Part shown: positions 4,041-13,064 of the stretch, one piece after another
How positions within the stretch are numbered: the first letter of the stretch is position 1
Layout: each line of letters opens with the position of its first letter
Assembly: GCF_014647155.1 (NCBI RefSeq)
Contig: NZ_BMOQ01000005.1
Coordinates: 186,001-250,000, forward strand
Reading direction: 5' to 3'
DNA length: 64,000 nt
DNA from: Halarchaeum nitratireducens
GTDB lineage: Archaea > Halobacteriota > Halobacteria > Halobacteriales > Halobacteriaceae
Notes under the pieces: model-generated
The model's database searches: none
Told to the model about the DNA's origin: nothing
Seen by the model: the letters and a program-made list of their open reading frames with translations, nothing else
Program-made: the position numbers and the translations under genes

Positions 4041-5035
4041 GCGCTCTCCGCGTCGATGGCCGCTCGGGTCTCCTCGTCGACGCTGACGAGGTGACAGACC
4101 GGGTGGCCGGGCTGGGCGACCGGGTTCTGTAGGAGACCGACGACGAGGCCGGTGAACGGCGCGCGAACGACGTGTCGCTCGGTGCCGAAGTGGTCGTGGA
4201 CGGTGCAGATTGCCTCGCCGTCCTCGACGACGCTCGCACGCGTGACGTGCAGGTCGACGAGGCCGCCGGCGTCGGACCGGACCCACGCCTTCTCCGTGCG
4301 CGCGTTGACGACGCGGCGCCACGTGGGTTCGAGGCGTTCGCCGTCGTACATCCCGAGTTCGGTGAGCGCGCTCTCGATACCGGCGCTCGCGCGCTCGACG
4401 TGCGCCCGCTGGAAGCGGTGGGCCTCGCCCATCTCGACGGTGATGGTCGGCGTCCCCCGGTTCGTACACGAGGAGCGGATCGAGTTGTCCTCCTCGCCGA
4501 TGCCCGCGAGTACGACGTTCGCGCCGAACGCCTCCGCGAGGCGGGCCGCCCCCTCGCGTTCCGTCTGCGCTCTGGTGTGGAACATCGTGGTGCGCCCGCG
4601 CGTCGACGTGTGGAGGTCGATCCCGTAGTCGCAGTGCGAGAAGAGCCCCCGATACAGTTCGTTGGCGATGCGTTGGGCGGGCGTCGACCGTTCGCTCCCC
4701 GGGAACGAGCGGTTCAGGTCCTGATCGTAGATCGGGAGGTAGCGCTGCTGGGCGAGATAGCCCGGCGGATTGACGACGTGAACGATGAGGAGGGTACCGG
4801 CGAGGTCGGCGGGGTCGTATCGGACGGCGACGTCGTGGGCGACCTTCACGCCGTTGAGTTCGTCGCCGTGGACGGCCGCCGAGATGAAGACGCTCGGCCC
4901 GTCGCGCTCGCCGTTGACGACGGTCACCGGCACCCGGATGGGGTCCCCGAGGAACGTCTCGCTGATCGCGTACCGCGCGTGTCGGACCTCGCCGGGCGGT
5001 ACGCTGCCGCCGCCGTACTCGAAGGGAGTAGCCAT
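4037..5035 (-). CDS. Succinylglutamate desuccinylase/aspartoacylase family zinc hydrolase
   Basis: A 332-residue enzyme of the AstE/AspA (M14-like) family, which hydrolyses N-acyl amino acids. The zinc site is visible: H56 and E59 in HGDELNG and H142 in DLHTST, with a later Glu in TVEMGEAH as the likely general base. A C-terminal beta domain of about 90 residues ends with a lipoyl-like 'APFTGLVVG' turn seen in this family. Substrate cannot be read from sequence; neither arginine-catabolism genes nor N-acetylaspartate genes adjoin it. The ATG at the MATPFEY start has a GATAAGT promoter-like element about 27 bases upstream, so an alternative start 33 codons earlier is unlikely. Confidence 0.87.
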   Translation of the reverse strand: MATPFEYGGGSVPPGEVRHARYAISETFLGDPIRVPVTVVNGERDGPSVFISAAVHGDELNGVKVAHDVAVRYDPADLAGTLLIVHVVNPPGYLAQQRYLPIYDQDLNRSFPGSERSTPAQRIANELYRGLFSHCDYGIDLHTSTRGRTTMFHTRAQTEREGAARLAEAFGANVVLAGIGEEDNSIRSSCTNRGTPTITVEMGEAHRFQRAHVERASAGIESALTELGMYDGERLEPTWRRVVNARTEKAWVRSDAGGLVDLHVTRASVVEDGEAICTVHDHFGTERHVVRAPFTGLVVGLLQNPVAQPGHPVCHLVSVDEETRAAIDAESA

Positions 5036-5125
5036 GCGAGCACCGAGGCGCGCCGGGCACTTATCGAAGTCGTAAACCACAAGACGCGATACACAATCGC
5101 CGTCGGGCCGAGCCGTGAGTTTCAG

Positions 5126-5144
5126 GTCCCTCATTCCGAGGGAC
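5126..5144. promoter_or_regulatory. Inverted repeat in the divergent promoter region
   Basis: GTCCCTC and GAGGGAC are exact reverse complements around the loop ATTCC. The repeat lies five bases ahead of the GTG of the truncated flippase-like gene and about 90 bases from the divergent aspartoacylase-family start. It may have been an operator for the now-broken gene; no protein partner is evident. Confidence 0.3.
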
Positions 5145-5613
5145 GGGCGTGCTCGATGCCCGCCGCCGCGCGGCCGTCGTCGGCTTCCTCGTCGCGGCGC
5201 TCGCCCTCGCCGGCCCCTTCTGGTTCGTCGATGCGGGCGAGGTGACCGCGGAGCTCGCGGCCGCCGACCTCGGTCTGATCGCGCTCGTCGGCGTGGCGGC
5301 GCTCACGTGGCTCGGCGCGTGGGCGTTCGCCCTCCGCCTCGTCCTCGGCGCGATCGGTCCGACGCTCCCCTACGGCGACTCCGTCCTCGTCTACGCGGCC
5401 GCGTCGTTCGCCAACAACGTCACGCCGTTCGGGCAGGCGGGCGGCGACGTCGTCCGCGTCCTCGCCGCCCTCAGTCGCGGGATCGGCCGCCGGCCGATAG
5501 TCACCCGTGTCGCTCGCGCTCGTCACGCACCACGGGACGTCGCGGGCGTTATCGATCACACCCCCTACCGCCGCAACGGTGGTAAAAAAGCCGCCGAACT
5601 CCGTTCGGAAGGC

Positions 5614-5648
5614 CGTTCCGTCGGTCACCACTCGGTGACCCCGGAACG
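5614..5648. repeat. Long interrupted inverted repeat
   Basis: CGTTCCG (5614-5620) pairs with CGGAACG (5642-5648), and inside it GGTCACC (5623-5629) pairs with GGTGACC (5634-5640) around the loop ACTC. This makes 14 base pairs with a small asymmetric bulge (two bases against one). It lies in non-coding DNA after the broken flippase gene and about 190 bases before the regulator start. Confidence 0.5.
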
Positions 5649-5662
5649 ACTCAGAGGCACAA

Positions 5663-5679
5663 CCGGTGACAACCACCGG
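5663..5679. repeat. Perfect 6-bp inverted repeat
   Basis: CCGGTG and CACCGG are exact reverse complements separated by ACAAC. It repeats the GGTGAC word of the larger hairpin just upstream, so the two may be related copies of one binding or structural element. Confidence 0.4.
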
Positions 5680-5801
5680 CACGTATCGAGTGGGACGGCC
5701 CGGTGTTTAACTCACCTGTTGGATCGACTCCCGTCGGGCAATACGTGATAATAAATCCTTCGTACATTCATACCGTTCAGCGCTTCGATCGTACCAACGA
5801 G

Positions 5802-5808
5802 CTTATAC
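5802..5808 (+). promoter_or_regulatory. TATA box of the FilR1-type regulator
   Basis: CTTATAC is centred about 28 bases before the ATG at 5833, the spacing expected when transcription starts at the start codon. This supports both that start and a leaderless mRNA. Confidence 0.6.
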
Positions 5809-5832
5809 GCCGAGAACGCACCACCGGAGCGT

Positions 5833-6597
5833 ATGGCCAGCGACCCCGAACAGTTCGCACGACTGCTCGTCGATCGTGCACCGTTCCTCCGGACGCTGGC
5901 CGACGGCGCCGTCCCGAAGCGCGTGCTCGCCGACGCGCACGACGTCTCACGCTCCACCGTCGATCGCGCGGTCCGCGACCTGGAGGCCACGGGGGCCGTC
6001 GAGCGCCGCGACGGCGCCGTCGCTCTCACGCTGATCGGGCGACTCGGCCTCGCCGCGCACGACGCCTTCCGCGCCGACGTCGACGCGCTCGCGGGCGCCG
6101 CCTCCCTCTCCGCCCTCCCCGCCACCGCGTCCGTCACGCTCGACGTCGTGCGAAACGCCGAGATCGTCGACGCCGATTCGAAGACGCCGCACCGTCCCGT
6201 CTCCGTTCTGACCGACCTCTTGGCGGAGGCCGTGCGCGTCGAACTGTACGCCACGCGCGTGCTCCCGGAGGCGATGGACACGCTCCGCCGGCGCGTCGAC
6301 GCGGGACTCGTCCTCGACGCGTACGTCGTCCCGGACGTCCTCGACGCGCTCTTCGTCGATTTCCGCGGGCCCATCGAAGCCGTCCTCCAAGCGGAGACGG
6401 TCACGCTCTTCGAGGTCGAACCGACCTACCCGTTCGGCCTCGCGCTCTGTCACCTCCCGGACGGTAGGCGGGTCGTCTGTCTCGCCTGCGGCGATCGCGG
6501 TGTCGCACTCCTCCTCGTCAACGACACCCGCGAGGCCCTCTCGTGGGCGCGCGAACGCCTCGATCGCGTCGCGGCGGCCGCCCGCCCTCTTCGCTGA
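5833..6597 (+). CDS. Winged-helix transcriptional regulator, FilR1-domain type
   Basis: A 254-residue DNA-binding regulator. Residues 1-75 form a winged helix with a recognition helix in 'DVSRSTVDRAVRDLEATGAVERR'-like sequence. The remainder (about 95-254) matches the middle/C-terminal domain of the archaeal FilR1/DUF1724 family, a ligand-sensing module first described in methanogen filament regulation. Haloarchaea carry many paralogues with mostly unknown targets. It stands alone with its own TATA box. The upstream hairpins with GGTGAC words and the neighbouring broken flippase gene are possible targets, but that is speculation. Confidence 0.85.
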   Translation: MASDPEQFARLLVDRAPFLRTLADGAVPKRVLADAHDVSRSTVDRAVRDLEATGAVERRDGAVALTLIGRLGLAAHDAFRADVDALAGAASLSALPATASVTLDVVRNAEIVDADSKTPHRPVSVLTDLLAEAVRVELYATRVLPEAMDTLRRRVDAGLVLDAYVVPDVLDALFVDFRGPIEAVLQAETVTLFEVEPTYPFGLALCHLPDGRRVVCLACGDRGVALLLVNDTREALSWARERLDRVAAAARPLR

Positions 6598-6601
6598 GCG
6601 G

Positions 6602-7168
6602 CTACGTCCGGAGCGTCGCGCCCTCGTACGTCCGCTCGACGCGGTACTCGACGTCCGAGAGCCGCGTCGCCGACCAGACGCCGAGCGCGACCGCCGCGTC
6701 GTCGCGAACCGCCGACGCGACCGACAGGTGCTCGCCGGCGCGCAGGACGGGACACAGCTCGTCGTAGACGCGCTCGCCGCCCACCGACACCGCGATCCGC
6801 GCGTCGATGGCCGGTCCGGCGCCGACGTTGCTGGCGACGAGCGTGCCGCCCCGCGTTTCGAGGACGATCTCGGGGGCGGCGTCGGCGCGCCGCGTCCGGC
6901 GCTGTTCGACGTTCCCCCACACGAGCGTCAGCGCGTACCACACCGTCGCGAGGACGACGTAGAGCGCGAAGAGCAGACGCGTCCGACCCGCCGCGACGAC
7001 GCCCGTGAGGTACGCGACGAAGGTCAGTCCGACCGAGAGGCCGAAGGCGACGACGCCCGCGGCGAGGACGACGGACCGCCCGACGAGTCGGCGGACGCGC
7101 GTTCCGTACCCGCGAAAGCCGACTTCCGACTCGCCGCTCGGCGACCAATCGAAGGGGAGTGACGACAT
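6602..7168 (-). CDS. Haloarchaeal membrane protein of unknown function
   Basis: A 188-residue protein with a short soluble N-terminus, two adjacent transmembrane helices (about residues 32-55 and 63-85), and a C-terminal soluble domain of about 95 beta-rich residues. The soluble domain resembles an extracytoplasmic immunoglobulin-like fold ('LVASNVGAGPAIDARIAV'). I do not recognise a named family. The ATG giving MSSLPFDWS was chosen over a reading 17 codons longer because the extension is Arg-rich and unlike a membrane protein start. It ends four bases after the convergent regulator and starts divergently from the ABC cassette. Confidence 0.72.
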   Translation of the reverse strand: MSSLPFDWSPSGESEVGFRGYGTRVRRLVGRSVVLAAGVVAFGLSVGLTFVAYLTGVVAAGRTRLLFALYVVLATVWYALTLVWGNVEQRRTRRADAAPEIVLETRGGTLVASNVGAGPAIDARIAVSVGGERVYDELCPVLRAGEHLSVASAVRDDAAVALGVWSATRLSDVEYRVERTYEGATLRT

Positions 7169-7250
7169 CGTCCGAGACGTATCACCGCGAGCTACTACGG
7201 TCCACCGGCCGGGCGACACGCGCGTCGAGTGCGCCGTAACGCCCTTGTCG

Positions 7251-8159
7251 GTGCCGGTCGCGCGGACGAACGTGCTCTCCGTGTCCGGTCTGCGGAAGAC
7301 CTACGGCGACGTCGAGGCCGTCCGCGGCATCGACTTCGAGGTCGCCGACGGCGAGGTGTTCGGTCTCGTCGGCCCGAACGGCGCGGGCAAGACGACGACG
7401 CTCAAGACCCTCGCCGGCCTGCTCGAACCCACGTCGGGCGAGGTGGTCGTGAACGGCTACGACGCCGGCGATCCCGAGATGCGCCGCACCCTCGGCTTCC
7501 TCCCCGAGGAGTCGCCGCTCTACGAGGACATGACGCCGCGATCGTACCTCCGGTTCTTCGGCGACCTCTACGACGTGGATCGGGAGACGGCGGACGAGCG
7601 GATCGCCGCCGCGCTCGACCGCCTCGACCTCGACGCCCGCGACCGCCCCGTCGGTGACTTCTCGAAGGGGATGAAGCGGAAGGTCGCCATCGCGCGCTCG
7701 CTCGTCAACGACCCCGACGTCCTCGTCTACGACGAACCCGCCTCGGGGCTCGATCCGACGACGACGAACGTCGTCATCGAGTTCACGCGCGACCTCGCCG
7801 CGCGGGGCAAGACGATCGTCTTCAGCGCCCACGACCTCCACCACGTCGAGTCGGTCTGCGACCGCGTCGCCATCGTCTCCGAGGGGGCGATCGCGGCCGA
7901 GGGAACGCTCGACGAGATCCGCGCCGCGCACGGCCGCGTCGAGTACCGCGTCTTCACGGACGTCGGGGTCCCGGGCGCGGAGCGCCTCGACGCCGAGCGC
8001 GGGGACGGCGCTCGGTACCGCGTGCGCGTCGACTCGATGGCCGCCGTCGAGGACGTCCGCGAGCGCGCCGCCGAGGCCGGCGGCGACGTCCTCGACATCC
8101 GGACGCGCGAGTCCACGCTGGAGGACGTCTTCCTCGCCGTCACGGGAGGGCCGGCGTGA
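7251..8159 (+). CDS. ABC transporter ATP-binding protein
   Basis: About 302 residues. The nucleotide-binding domain has Walker A GPNGAGKTT, the Q-loop region, signature FSKGMKRK (a degenerate LSGGQ), Walker B VLVYDEPASGLD and the switch His in SAHD. The C-terminal 80 residues form the small alpha-beta domain typical of ABC-2 (CcmA/NatA-like) ATPases. Its stop overlaps the GTG of the PrsW-fused permease by four bases, and a second permease follows, so the three genes form one transporter. The start is uncertain: GTG at 7251 is preferred, but GTG at 7272 begins closer to the first conserved strand. Substrate unknown. Confidence 0.9.
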   Translation: MPVARTNVLSVSGLRKTYGDVEAVRGIDFEVADGEVFGLVGPNGAGKTTTLKTLAGLLEPTSGEVVVNGYDAGDPEMRRTLGFLPEESPLYEDMTPRSYLRFFGDLYDVDRETADERIAAALDRLDLDARDRPVGDFSKGMKRKVAIARSLVNDPDVLVYDEPASGLDPTTTNVVIEFTRDLAARGKTIVFSAHDLHHVESVCDRVAIVSEGAIAAEGTLDEIRAAHGRVEYRVFTDVGVPGAERLDAERGDGARYRVRVDSMAAVEDVRERAAEAGGDVLDIRTRESTLEDVFLAVTGGPA

Positions 8160-9961
8160 GCCCGCGACGCGTCCTCCGGATCGCGCGCTGGGAGGCGGGA
8201 CGCAACGCCGGGACGATCGACCGACGGACGGCGATCCTCCTCGCGTGCACGCTCCTCGTCGTCGCGCTCGTCGCGCCCGCGCTCGTCCTGTCCGCGCCGA
8301 CGCCCGGCCAGGGCGTCTACCGCGTCGCGGTCGACGACGCGAACCCCTACCGCGCGCCCGTCGCGCTGAACGACCGACTCAGCGCCGTCCCGCCGGGCGC
8401 GAACGCCGTCGAACGCGGCCGCGCGGACGTCGCCGTCGTCGGCACGAGCGGCTTCGTCGTCGCCGACAGCGCGAAGGGGCGCGCGGCGCTCGCCGCCCTG
8501 CGAAGCGCCACCGAGGCGTACAACGACCGGCTGATGGCGACGGAGAACGACGTCGCCGCCGCGTTCCCCGTGACCGTCGACGTCTCGTACGTCGAGCGCG
8601 GGACGCGCGTCGCCGGCGGCTCCGGCGGGAGTGCAGCGATCGACGCCGACGACGGGGCCGGCGCGCGGACGGACGACGGCGGAACGACCGTCGGCGGCGG
8701 GACGACTGCTGACAGTGGGGCAACGACGGGCGACGGGACCGGCACGACGACGGCTGTCGGAGGCGGCGCATCCGCGGGCACCGCGGGACCGAGCGTGAGC
8801 GGCGACGCGAGCGCGCCCGCGAACACGCCCGGCGGTCTCACGCCGCCGTTCCCCTTGGAGTCGCTGTTGCTCGCGTTCGTCTTCGTCCTCCCGCTGAACG
8901 TCGTCATCCAGTCCTACGGCTCCAGCGTGCTCGACGAACGGGTCGACCGCCGGGGCGAACCGCTCCTCGTCTCCCCGGCGACGCGCGCCGACATCGTGGC
9001 CGGGAAGACCCTCCCGTATCTCGCCGCGGCCGCGCTCGTCACGGTCCCCATCGCCTACGCGGTCGGTGCGGGCGTCGCGTCCGTGCTCGCCGTCCTCCCG
9101 CTCGCCGCGCTCTTCCTCGGCGTCACCTTCCTCGGCGCGCTCTTCGCGCGCTCGTACAAGGAGCTCACGTTCGTCACGGTGACCGTCACGGTCGTCCTGA
9201 TGGCCTACGCCTTCGTCCCCGCGGTGTTCACCGAGGTCCACCCCATCGCGGCTATCAGCCCGCTCTCCGTCGTCGTCCGCGACATCCGCGGCGATCCCTT
9301 CCAGCTCGGGGGCTTCCTCCTCGCCACCGTCCCGGTCGCCACCGCGGCGGTCGTCTGCTACGGCCTCGGCCTCGGCGTCTACCGCGAGGAGGACCTCTTC
9401 ACCCAGAAACGCCTCCCCGCGAAGGCGCTCGACGCGCTCGCGGCCCCCCTCACGTCCGTCCGGCGCGTCGGTCTGCTGACCGTGGCGCTCGTCCCCTTCG
9501 TCCTCATCGCCGAACTGTTCGCCGTCGCGTCGCTGTTCGTCGCGCCGCCCGACCTCGCCGTGCCGATCGTCCTCGTACTCGTCGCCGTCATCGAGGAGGT
9601 CGCCAAGAGCGTCCACGTCTACGCCGGCTTCACGAACGCGCGCTTCGAGCGCGCCACGCGGGCGGCGCTCGCGCTCGGCGTCGCCTCCGGCGTCGGCTTC
9701 TTCCTCGGCGAGAAACTCCTCCTCCTCACGCGCCTCGTCGGTCTCTCGGATCTCACCGTCGGCGGCGCGGCGTTCGGCAACGCGGAACTCGGCGCGGGAT
9801 CGCTCGCGCTCCTCGCCGCTCCGCTCGTCCTCCACGCGGTCACCGCCTCGGTGTCGGCGCTCGGGGCGCGCCGGAGCGCGCGGGGGTACGCGATCGCCCT
9901 CGCCGGGGCGGTTCTCCTCCACCTCGGCTACAACTACACGGTGGTGACCACCGTTGGATAG
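8156..9961 (+). CDS. ABC-2 permease fused to a PrsW-like intramembrane metalloprotease
   Basis: A 601-residue protein in two parts. Residues 1-420 are an ABC-2 type permease: a first helix near 25-45, a large external region with a Gly/Thr/Ala-rich linker (about 160-225), then about five helices. Residues 425-601 are a PrsW-family membrane protease module with its metal-site residues in place: E480 and E481 in EEVAK, E519 in FFLGE, H560 and H589. PrsW enzymes cut within membranes; the Bacillus member degrades an anti-sigma factor. The GTG start overlaps the ATPase stop, and a TTG-started permease overlaps the 3' end by eight bases. Fusion of exporter and protease suggests maturation or removal of a substrate during export (inference). 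Confidence 0.84.
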   Translation: MSPRRVLRIARWEAGRNAGTIDRRTAILLACTLLVVALVAPALVLSAPTPGQGVYRVAVDDANPYRAPVALNDRLSAVPPGANAVERGRADVAVVGTSGFVVADSAKGRAALAALRSATEAYNDRLMATENDVAAAFPVTVDVSYVERGTRVAGGSGGSAAIDADDGAGARTDDGGTTVGGGTTADSGATTGDGTGTTTAVGGGASAGTAGPSVSGDASAPANTPGGLTPPFPLESLLLAFVFVLPLNVVIQSYGSSVLDERVDRRGEPLLVSPATRADIVAGKTLPYLAAAALVTVPIAYAVGAGVASVLAVLPLAALFLGVTFLGALFARSYKELTFVTVTVTVVLMAYAFVPAVFTEVHPIAAISPLSVVVRDIRGDPFQLGGFLLATVPVATAAVVCYGLGLGVYREEDLFTQKRLPAKALDALAAPLTSVRRVGLLTVALVPFVLIAELFAVASLFVAPPDLAVPIVLVLVAVIEEVAKSVHVYAGFTNARFERATRAALALGVASGVGFFLGEKLLLLTRLVGLSDLTVGGAAFGNAELGAGSLALLAAPLVLHAVTASVSALGARRSARGYAIALAGAVLLHLGYNYTVVTTVG

Positions 9962-11000
9962 TCGCCTCGTCCTCGCGCGCCGCGAACTCGCCTCCCTGCG
10001 CCGCGAGAAGACGATCGTCCTCGCGCTCGCCATCCAGCTGTTCGTCGCGGCGTTCTCGTCCGTCCTCGTCGTCGGCCTCGTGAGCCTCTACGCGCCGGGC
10101 GCCGCGGGCGGTGCCGTGGCCGTCGACGTCGGCGTGACGGGCGACGCCGCCGACGACCTCGGGCCGGTCGTCGATCGCGGCGACGCCATGTACGCGACCT
10201 ACTACGACGCGGAGAGGGCGGCGCGCGCCGGCTTCGAGCGCGGCGACGTCGACGCCGTCCTCGTCGCCGATCGCCTCGACAGCGGTCGCACGTACGTCGA
10301 CGCCACCGTCCCCGACGGCTCGTTCGCCACCACCGTCGTCGTCAGTCGGCTGAAGGCGGCGCTCTCGCGCTACGAGCGCCAGCGCCGCGCCGCCCTCTCG
10401 ACGCGCCTCGATCGCCAGCCCCTCGACCTCCCGCCCGAGCGCGGCGGGAGCACGTATCACGGGTTCACCTACACGGTGCTCATCCCCGCGCTCGCCTTCC
10501 TGCCGGCGTTCATCAGCGGCTCCATCGCCGCCGACAGCATCGCGGAGGAGCGCGAGCGCGAGACGTGGGACCTCCTGCGGAGCGCACCGCTCTCGATCCC
10601 CGAGATCGTCGACGGGAAGGCGCTCGCGTTCGTCGCCATCGCGCCCGCGCAGGTCGCGTGTTGGTTCGCGTTCCTCGCGCTCAACGGCACGCCGATCCAC
10701 GCGCCCCTCGCCGCGCTCGGGTTCGTCACCGCGCTGACCGGCCTCCTCGTCGTCGGCGGTGTCGCGGCAGCGCTCGCCGTCCCGAAACACCGCGAGGCTC
10801 AGCTCGTCTACTCCTTCGGCGCGCTGGGCGCGTTCGGCGCGGCGAGCCTCCTCCCCGAGAGCCCGCAGAACGTCGTCGCCAAGCTCGCCATCGGGTCGCC
10901 GACGACGATCACGTGGCTCACGGTCGTGGGCGCGATCGTCCTCGGCGTCGTCAGCTACGCCGCGACCCGCGTCGCCGCGGCCCGGGCGGCGACCACGTAG
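9954..11000 (+). CDS. ABC transporter permease (ABC-2 type)
   Basis: A 348-residue membrane protein. One helix (about residues 22-45) is followed by a roughly 130-residue external domain and then five or six helices in the C-terminal half. The sequence EERERETWDLL after the second helix is the cytoplasmic coupling motif of NatB/ABC-2 permeases. It starts with TTG inside the end of the upstream gene, so it is translationally coupled to the ATPase and the PrsW-fused permease; together they make a heterodimeric exporter. No substrate gene lies beside it. Confidence 0.88.
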   Translation: MDSRLVLARRELASLRREKTIVLALAIQLFVAAFSSVLVVGLVSLYAPGAAGGAVAVDVGVTGDAADDLGPVVDRGDAMYATYYDAERAARAGFERGDVDAVLVADRLDSGRTYVDATVPDGSFATTVVVSRLKAALSRYERQRRAALSTRLDRQPLDLPPERGGSTYHGFTYTVLIPALAFLPAFISGSIAADSIAEERERETWDLLRSAPLSIPEIVDGKALAFVAIAPAQVACWFAFLALNGTPIHAPLAALGFVTALTGLLVVGGVAAALAVPKHREAQLVYSFGALGAFGAASLLPESPQNVVAKLAIGSPTTITWLTVVGAIVLGVVSYAATRVAAARAATT

Positions 11001-11050
11001 CTCCCGTCCGCCGCCGAACCGTTCTTCGGTCCGGCCACCCTACCGGGGGT

Positions 11051-11476
11051 ATGGTCGAACGCGTCACCAGCGAGGGCGTCCGCACGGTCGACACCGTCCT
11101 CGAACGCTACGGATCGACGAACCGTCCCCAGCTCCGCGTCACCGACTCCGACGCGGTGCCGGTGGGCGAGGTGGTCCGCCTCGCCGTCGACGACGCCGAG
11201 TACCGCACGCGGGTGGCGGAGGACGCCTCCGGGAGCGCGGTGCTTCGCGGGGCGTTCGAGTCGCCGCGGCTCGCGCGGACGCCCGGCGAGGGCGAGAACC
11301 ACCTGCGCGCGTGGCTGCACGCGCTCGATCTCGACTACGGTCGGACGATCCACCTCGACGTCGTGACGTCCGACTACAAGTACGGGGTCCGCGCGCCGGG
11401 CGAGCGAGCGACGTACGCAGCGACGGAGGCCCCCGACGACGGGTTGGCGAGCATCGCGCGGGACCTCGACGGCTAG
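11051..11476 (+). CDS. Haloarchaeal DUF7112-like protein
   Basis: A 141-residue acidic soluble protein with an N-terminal 'RPQLRV' strand, a central 'SPRLART..GENHL' loop and a C-terminal 'TIHLDVVTSDYKYGVRAPGE' region. The pattern matches a conserved haloarchaeal family I remember as DUF7112; function unknown. It has no membrane segment or signal peptide. It follows the ABC cassette by 50 bases but has a CCACCCTA promoter-like stretch before its ATG and may be transcribed alone. Confidence 0.75.
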   Translation: MVERVTSEGVRTVDTVLERYGSTNRPQLRVTDSDAVPVGEVVRLAVDDAEYRTRVAEDASGSAVLRGAFESPRLARTPGEGENHLRAWLHALDLDYGRTIHLDVVTSDYKYGVRAPGERATYAATEAPDDGLASIARDLDG

Positions 11477-11954
11477 GGATCGGGGTGTCGCGGAAGGTCG
11501 CGCGGTAGTCGTCGCGGGTGAGCTCGGTGGCGACGGCGTCGAGAGCGCGCCGTCGCTCGCCGATCGCCGCGTCCCGGCGGTCACGGCCACTCCCGTGTCG
11601 TCGCTGCGCTCTTCGCACCAGCGTTGCGAACCCGTTTTCGGCGTACCTATACGGCTCATCGCCACCGGTGCGATTTCCGGTTTGACAGACCTACCGCTCT
11701 CCCTCGCGCGGCGGCTGACCGTGGGACCGTCTGCCACGATAAACATATAAGAATACCGGTCGAGTGACAGCGATCGTCGAGACGACGAAACGCCTCTCAG
11801 GCGACTCTAAGGGACCTGTAGTGGGTGTTAGTAGATACCACTGTCCGCTGCCATTACCGAAGGGTTTAAGTACTTGTCGACCTTATCTGTGGTTAGGAAC
11901 CGCCGGTCGGAGGAACTTATACATTCTTCTCCTACCGGATCCGGAGTATCCATC
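11477..11954. other. Long non-coding region with stacked promoter elements upstream of tfb
   Basis: No convincing gene is present. The left half is GC-rich. The right half (from about 11,640) is AT-richer and holds three TATA-like elements on the plus strand: CATATA (11744-11749), TTTAAG (11865-11870) and CTTATAC (11916-11922). An imperfect inverted repeat (AGTGG..CCACT, near 11819-11843) lies between the first two. The most downstream element is best placed for the tfb start; the others may serve alternative starts or an RNA leader. Confidence 0.5.
11916..11922 (+). promoter_or_regulatory. Proximal TATA box of tfb
   Basis: CTTATAC with an A-rich left flank lies 33-39 bases before the tfb ATG. 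This predicts a leader of roughly ten bases rather than a leaderless transcript. Confidence 0.5.
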
Positions 11955-12935
11955 ATGAGCGACACCACGATCCGCACGTACACCAGCGACAGTCAGCGAA
12001 CAGAGCGCACGACCGAGGAGACGACCGACGAGCGAACCGACGTCGACGTCTGTCCCGAGTGTGGCGGCACGCTCCGCACCGACGAGACCCACGGCGAGAC
12101 CGTCTGCGCCGACTGTGGTCTCGTCGTCGAGGAGGACGGCATCGACCGGGGGCCGGAGTGGCGGGCGTTCAACAGCCAGGAGAAGGACCAGAAATCGCGC
12201 GTCGGCGCCCCGACGACGAACATGATGCACGACAAGGGGCTCTCGACCAACATCGGCTGGCAGAACAAGGACGCCTACGGCAACTCGCTGTCGAGCCGCC
12301 AGCGCCAGAAGATGCAGCGCCTGCGCACCTGGAACGAGCGCTTCCGCACCCGCAACAGCAAGGAGCGGAACCTGAAGCAGGCGCTCGGCGAGATCGAGCG
12401 CATGGCCAGCGCCCTCGGCCTCCCCAAGGAGGTCCGGGAGACCGCGTCGGTCATCTACCGCCGCGCGCTCGACGAGGACCTCCTCCCCGGTCGCTCCATC
12501 GAGGGCGTCGCCACCGCCGCCCTCTACGCGGCGGCGCGTCAGATGCAGACCCCGCGCTCGCTCGACGAAGTCGCCACCGTCTCGCGCATCGACGACATGG
12601 AGTTCAAGCGGACCTACCGCTACATCGTCCGCGAGCTCAACCTCGAAGTCGCCCCCGCCGACCCCGCGAGCTACGTCCCGCGCTTCGTCAGCGAACTCGA
12701 CCTCAGCGACGAGGTCGAGCGTCAGGCCCGCGACCTCCTGAAGACCGCCGGCGACCAGGGGGTCACAAGCGGTAAGTCCCCGGTCGGCCTCGCCGCCGCC
12801 GCGATCTACGCCGCGAGCCTGCTCGCCAACCAGAAGGTCACGCAGAGCGAGGTCAGCGAGGTGACGGACGTCTCCGAGGTCACGATCCGCAACCGCTACC
12901 AGGAGCTCCTCGAAGCCGCCGAGAACGCGGCGTAA
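11955..12935 (+). CDS. tfb: Transcription initiation factor IIB (TFB)
   Basis: A 326-residue general transcription factor that recruits RNA polymerase to TBP-bound promoters and reads the BRE. A Thr/Glu-rich N-terminus leads into the zinc ribbon (C33, C36, C51, C54 in CPECGG and CADCGL), then the conserved B-finger/linker (WRAFNSQEK) and two cyclin-like repeats (about 135-215 and 230-322). The second repeat ends with the BRE-reading helix region EVTDVSEVTIRNRYQEL. Haloarchaea have several TFB paralogues that pair with different TBPs for different gene sets; which one this is cannot be said. The long upstream region with several TATA elements suggests complex control. Confidence 0.96.
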   Translation: MSDTTIRTYTSDSQRTERTTEETTDERTDVDVCPECGGTLRTDETHGETVCADCGLVVEEDGIDRGPEWRAFNSQEKDQKSRVGAPTTNMMHDKGLSTNIGWQNKDAYGNSLSSRQRQKMQRLRTWNERFRTRNSKERNLKQALGEIERMASALGLPKEVRETASVIYRRALDEDLLPGRSIEGVATAALYAAARQMQTPRSLDEVATVSRIDDMEFKRTYRYIVRELNLEVAPADPASYVPRFVSELDLSDEVERQARDLLKTAGDQGVTSGKSPVGLAAAAIYAASLLANQKVTQSEVSEVTDVSEVTIRNRYQELLEAAENAA

Positions 12936-13064
12936 GCGGATCTCCGGTGTCCTCCGCGCGGCCCCGCGCCGTGTGACGGCTCGTCGCACGCGTTCGATTC
13001 GTCTTCTCCCGACGCCATCGCGCGTAGCGACGGCTCTCTCCCTCTTACTCACTCACCGCCACTC

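Follow-up and report, generated by a model that had tools for sequence, protein, structure and literature searches.

A phylum-wide archaeal fusion of an ABC-2 permease with a PrsW-type intramembrane protease domain in a three-gene exporter cassette

The stretch of DNA analysed here (the window) comprises 64,000 nucleotides of Halarchaeum nitratireducens (contig NZ_BMOQ01000005.1, positions 186,001 to 250,000) and contains, at 8156..9961 on the forward (+) strand, a single open reading frame (ORF) for a 601-residue protein in which a permease of the ABC-2 type (ABC, ATP-binding cassette) is followed by an intramembrane protease domain of the PrsW type. The gene for this fusion protein is the middle one of a cassette of three, preceded by a gene for an ABC ATPase and followed by one for a second ABC-2 permease, and homologues of the fusion occur widely across its archaeal phylum. 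The ORF and its residues E480 and E481 (in EEVAK), E519 (in FFLGEK), H560 and H589 (in HLGYN) had been pointed out in an earlier prediction made from these letters without database searches (hereafter the original prediction), and direct reading of the sequence finds all of them in place. The ORF opens with GTG at 8156, has no internal stops and ends with a stop codon at 9961. Its start codon overlaps the stop codon of the ATPase gene (ending at 8159), and the TTG start codon of the second permease gene (9954) overlaps the stop codon of the fusion; because of these overlaps, the three genes look translationally coupled, in keeping with the ATPase–permease–permease arrangement originally proposed. 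The nearest named relatives are found in Halarchaeum rubridurum and H. acidiphilum (88% and 79% identity over this protein, respectively).

The protease half (residues 429-601, transmembrane helices TM7-TM11; 9440..9958, +) lies below Pfam detection in the window protein itself, where it gives no Pfam match, and its assignment comes from orthologues, from profile comparison with hhalign and from an AlphaFold2 model. Many orthologues match the PrsW profile PF13367 above its curated cut-off of 23.5 bits, the best of them (from genome G023) with 38.6 bits and an E-value of 1.2e-9, and in that case the match falls within the same open frame as the permease. A profile built from the C-terminal half matches stand-alone haloarchaeal PrsW proteins with a probability of 94.6% (E 7.2e-8), and all four motifs, i.e. 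EExxK, GFxxxE, the histidine and HxxYN, are aligned in register, the FxxxE motif of the fusion being paired with GFATIEN of the stand-alone proteins. The motifs published for PrsW are EExxK in transmembrane helix 3, HxxxD in helix 6 and an additional histidine in helix 5 (PMC4602095). The fusion family has the EExxK helix, FxxxE in the next helix, the histidine and a final HxxxD/N, as well as the PF13367 match in orthologues, which together place it in the PrsW family (M82); the HxxxN variant seen in the window protein is likewise carried by the stand-alone haloarchaeal proteins. The C-terminal half is thus supported as a PrsW-type domain, with proteolysis as its putative activity. The CPBP/Rce1 family (PF02517) was considered and rejected: hhalign gives a probability of 2.8% against haloarchaeal CPBP proteins, a PF02517 scan of 25 genomes left the fusion loci unlisted, and the motifs expected of that family are EExxxR and FxxxH, whereas the fusion has EExxK and FxxxE. 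The source genome also encodes a stand-alone PrsW (G000:C3:238761-239327, locus L113), and such proteins are strongly matched (E about 1e-38 or better) in 58 of the 59 haloarchaeal genomes sampled, the fused copy being the more divergent of the two.

Conservation was counted over 122 aligned fusion homologues with identities down to about 27%. Seven residues, E480, E481, K484, E519, K520, H560 and H589, are invariant in all 122, which places the metal-type residues beyond chance and upholds the PrsW-like metal residues that the original prediction had seen in the second half. The first motif, EExxK (E480, E481, K484; 9593..9607, +), shows no exception, and in the second, FxxxEK (F515, E519, K520; 9698..9715, +), only F515 varies, being retained in 121 sequences and replaced by tyrosine in one. 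The third is the histidine H560 itself (9833..9835, +). The fourth, HxxxN (H589, N593; 9920..9934, +), keeps N593 in 116 homologues, with aspartate in five and a gap in one. Such strict invariance of seven residues at identities this low is what would be expected of an active enzyme.

The AlphaFold2 model of the full protein has a mean pLDDT (predicted local distance difference test) of 81 and a pTM (predicted template modelling score) of 0.73, and the block of the protease half mostly reaches a pLDDT of 85-99, except for one outer loop and the C-terminus; modelled alone, the protease domain forms five long helices (pLDDT 88.5, pTM 0.84). In the model, E480, E519, H560 and H589 lie in four successive helices, 15, 11, 12 and 11 residues, respectively, from the outer helix ends, i.e. 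at a similar predicted depth in the membrane, as an intramembrane metal site requires. The predicted topology is 11 transmembrane helices with the N-terminus inside and the C-terminus outside, and the positive-inside rule is obeyed, with 16-23 lysines and arginines per 100 residues in the predicted inner loops versus 1.5-7 in the outer ones. A Foldseek search of the full model against the PDB gave no significant match, the more probable neighbours being ABC-2 transporters and a mycobacterial efflux pump, all with non-significant E-values, and a sequence search for relatives of solved structure found none that is meaningful. The top Foldseek neighbour of the protease domain, a weak one (E 1.5, probability 0.51), is APH-1B of gamma-secretase, and APH-1 belongs to the same superfamily as PrsW (PMC4602095). 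This affinity would suit an explanation in which the PrsW-like domain cleaves nothing and contributes to the exporter, as APH-1 does to gamma-secretase, either structurally or by binding substrate; we consider it quite unlikely, as the metal-type residues are strictly invariant throughout the phylum, unlike what would be expected after a loss of catalysis.

The permease half (residues 1-408; 8156..9379, +) was recognized from the ABC2_membrane_3 profile (PF12698), the AlphaFold2 helices and the positive-inside character of its loops, and comprises TM1-TM6 with a large outer domain (residues 47-233). The window protein alone scores below the PF12698 threshold (E 0.0014), and the profile matches 51 of the 67 members of the fusion family, with a best E-value of 3.6e-22; with six long predicted helices in addition, these matches make the first half an ABC-2 exporter permease, as had been proposed. 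The outer domain includes a low-complexity stretch rich in glycine, threonine and serine (residues 147-225; window 8594-8830), which has a low pLDDT, is predicted to be disordered and differs in length between lineages. The permease is joined to the protease by a predicted cytosolic linker, YREEDLFTQKRLPAKALD (residues about 409-434; 9380..9457, +), which is strongly conserved: R410, E411, E412, D413, F415, Q417, K423 and D426 are each retained in at least 90% of homologues.

The fusion is by no means confined to the genus Halarchaeum. A translated search found homologues, a few of them weak, in 215 of 292 Halobacteria genomes, and among the matches listed almost all are full length in one frame. 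A scan of genome contigs added Methanosarcinales, Methanoperedens, Methanonatronarchaeales and Archaeoglobi, and a profile search across the phylum gave matches in 126 of 247 genomes, a few being weak and not representing the fusion. In the phylogenetic tree, the Halobacteria sequences form one clade (support 100/100), separate from the Methanosarcinales-type, other methanogen-type and Archaeoglobi clades. Since the tree agrees with taxonomy, an early presence of the fusion in the phylum, followed by mostly vertical inheritance, is probable, and this pattern, together with the occurrence of the fusion as a single ORF throughout the phylum, suggests that selection has long kept the two parts in one chain. 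It also disposes of two of the three outcomes that would have undone the original prediction, namely a join of two genes by a frameshift or assembly error, contradicted by the hundreds of single-ORF homologues, and absence from relatives; as to the third, metal residues that do not meet in a model, the predicted helices set these residues at a similar depth. The lack of a Pfam match in the C-terminal half of the window protein taken alone might still hint at an artefact of this kind, or at an unrelated membrane domain resembling PrsW by chance; given those homologues, the PF13367 matches above the curated cut-off in orthologues and the hhalign result, we regard it as extremely improbable.

The predicted partners of the fusion are those of an exporter. 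The ATPase gene (7251..8159, +; its start codon is uncertain, being either GTG at 7251 or one further upstream) encodes a NatA/DrrA/GldA-like protein with the PF00005 domain (E 1.7e-30) and the DrrA C-terminal domain; the protein also matches the models TIGR01188 (E 3e-74) and TIGR03522 (E 5.6e-60) and has an intact Walker A motif (GPNGAGKT), signature (FSKGM), Walker B motif (VLVYDEP) and H-loop (SAHD). The second ABC-2 permease (9954..11000, +; PF12698, E 8.3e-14), which would constitute the partner half, follows the fusion directly in essentially every locus with a readable flank. A comparison made by reading two lists of genome matches showed both proteins to be present in 72 and absent from 24 of 97 haloarchaeal genomes, with a single exception, G056, which lacks the fusion and keeps a fragment of the second permease (G056:C1:1602523-1602993), apparently as a result of decay of the cassette. 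The suggestion, made along with the original prediction, that the fusion might always sit in such a three-gene cassette therefore holds for the permease pair and only in part for the ATPase. The latter is immediately upstream in nearly all haloarchaeal loci, adjoins the fusion but is divergently transcribed in most methanogens and Archaeoglobi-type genomes, and was not found within about 4 kb of the fusion at four loci (L106, L207, L212 and L218). A cognate ATPase, as belongs to an ABC-2 exporter, is accordingly at hand in the window, in nearly all haloarchaea and, in divergent orientation, in most methanogens.

Several known systems resemble the cassette in part. Exporters of the NatAB/DrrAB type share with it the DrrA-type C-terminal ATPase domain and ABC2_membrane_3 permeases with a large outer domain; to our knowledge, they carry no protease domain. 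In peptidase-containing ABC transporters (PCAT), a C39 peptidase is covalently part of the exporter. It is, however, a cytosolic cysteine peptidase at the N-terminus, so that both the exporter fold and the protease class differ from those of the fusion. A parallel in architecture is the NCBIfam family NF041647 (ABC_perm_CPBP, 'ABC transporter permease subunit/CPBP intramembrane protease'), whose members of about 600 residues likewise have an N-terminal permease and a C-terminal protease, with domain positions inferred from profile matches. Their protease is of the CPBP (Rce1-like) family, whereas that of the window protein is of the PrsW type (EExxK/FxxxE); against this model, whose cut-off is 435 bits, the window protein reaches 11.7 bits, and just two of the 67 members of the fusion family are matched even at an E-value of 0.1. 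With the PrsW family (MEROPS M82, PF13367), represented by Bacillus subtilis PrsW and Haloferax volcanii HVO_0408, the fusion has in common the four motifs, kinship at the profile level and an intramembrane position (PMC4602095, PMC9263693); known PrsW domains are stand-alone or N-terminal to a toxin, while that of the fusion follows a permease at the C-terminal end of the chain and consists of five helices. The claim that fusions of this kind are not generally described thus needs to be narrowed: the general kind is known from the permease–CPBP fusion named in NF041647, and what is new is the PrsW version, archaeal and phylum-wide. The latter has no named family in Pfam or NCBIfam, and a RefSeq-derived record of one annotated homologue reads 'ABC transporter permease subunit' only. 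We found no paper on PrsW–ABC fusions in the open-access literature, most subscription journals lying outside the search. The family thereby reveals an unannotated protease domain within a common family of exporters.

What the cassette does can be approached from its parts. We infer an active protease, an ATPase acting together with the permease pair, a coupling of cleavage to transport and a peptide or protein as substrate. The ATPase would power an ABC-2 exporter made up of two permease halves, one being the fusion and the other its downstream neighbour, and the PrsW-type protease, built into the fusion half through the conserved cytosolic linker, would be set beside the translocation path. 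It would most likely cut membrane-inserted peptides or proteins within the bilayer, such as remnants of signal peptides, failed membrane proteins or anchored precursors, and hand the product to the attached exporter for removal outwards. That the three genes form one membrane machine for such cleavage and clearance is the reading we favour, tentatively and with slightly less than even confidence. Two precedents speak for it. In toxin systems, a coupling of processing to extrusion was put forward for PrsW (PMC3482391). The parallel with the best support is EcsAB of B. subtilis, an ABC transporter on which intramembrane proteolysis by RasP depends; a membrane 'cleaning function' has been suggested there (PMC2996298; pathway also described in PMC7478892). 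The likeness to EcsAB–RasP, i.e. ABC transporter function tied to intramembrane proteolysis, is a functional parallel only, as the components there come from separate genes and the protease is of the site-2 type, unlike in the single-chain fusion. The original proposal that exporter and protease in one chain clear or mature a substrate as it is moved is hence borne out as to the chain, a real and conserved fusion, and continues to be an interpretation as to the clearing or maturing during transport.

Whether a specific cargo accompanies the cassette was addressed by all-against-all clustering of neighbouring ORFs, a comparison made noisy by spurious ORFs of high-GC DNA and, for haloarchaeal loci, supplemented with a composition filter. 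Among the ORF matches listed, no conserved cargo gene was found beside the cassette across haloarchaeal or methanogen loci, the search for short ORFs not being exhaustive; this result favours a general housekeeping substrate. It is, by the same token, at odds with a dedicated system, in which one specific peptide or small protein would be exported after the protease had removed its membrane-inserted leader, in the manner of C39. PrsW domains are indeed fused to toxins as processing peptidases (PMC3482391); the broad, vertical and mostly single-copy distribution of the cassette is nevertheless unlike that of bacteriocin systems, and we deem leader processing somewhat unlikely. Some points weigh against cleavage and clearance as well: about a quarter of haloarchaea do not have the cassette, among them species whose genera otherwise possess it, so that its job is either dispensable or redundant; and the lack of a conserved neighbour is weak evidence on the substrate. 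The fuller version of this reading, a phylum-wide degradation and export machine in which polypeptides embedded in the membrane would be cut and the fragments pumped out at the expense of ATP, protease and pump sharing one chain, so as to clear signal peptides or failed membrane proteins, is conceivable, and we find it rather doubtful. Little is known of how archaea dispose of signal-peptide remnants and damaged membrane proteins, and for archaeal membrane proteases most targets have yet to be identified (PMC9263693). The fusion family offers a concrete gene in this area, one whose catalytic-type residues are invariant; as it occurs in culturable haloarchaeal groups, a coupling of intramembrane cutting with ATP-driven export is open to genetic test.

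A regulatory role has to be weighed, too. Upstream of the cassette in the window (5833-6597, +) is a gene for a helix-turn-helix (HTH) regulator of the FilR1/HVO_A0261 type, and in Halarchaeum, as at several loci of a second genus belonging to the family, related genes lie about 1.6-2.4 kb upstream of the midpoint of the fusion, so that the regulator may control the cassette there. Its presence would be in keeping with a signalling function, the permease sensing envelope stress or flux and the PrsW domain cleaving a membrane-bound regulator in site-1 fashion, as RsiW is cleaved by PrsW. The FilR1-like protein, however, shows HTH and FilR1-middle domains only and nothing that would point to anchoring in the membrane; beyond the family, it was not seen close to the cassette. 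Nor did the same comparison of neighbours bring up a conserved membrane regulator. We therefore judge signalling to be unlikely.

The remaining surroundings vary between lineages. A reverse-strand frame over the fusion (7727-10033) was dismissed as an unsupported, Arg/Glu-rich by-product typical of high-GC DNA. No structured RNA was detected at window positions 5000-13000; a promoter and terminator scan gave nothing useful, its patterns being of the sigma-70 type and unfit for archaea; and a search for anti-phage defence genes returned generic ATPase matches only, with none to the fusion or the second permease. Surface-type genes adjoin the cassette in single lineages, none being conserved across groups: DUF7288/DUF7266 pilin-like proteins in Methanoperedens (L083:4314-6143), a BatD/DUF11-type exoprotein in Methanolobus (L063:6924-8744) and an archaeal flagellin in a haloarchaeal metagenome-assembled genome (L041:1909-3363). 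A small membrane-type protein with no family assigned (window 6602-7219, -) stands beside the cassette only in close Halarchaeum relatives. Finally, the window encodes an AstE/AspA-type deacylase (PF24827; 4037-5134, -), homologues of which lie directly upstream of the ATPase gene and on the same strand at five Halorubrum/Halobellus loci (L036, L042, L044, L048 and L050), a proximity that possibly reflects a functional link or else chance.
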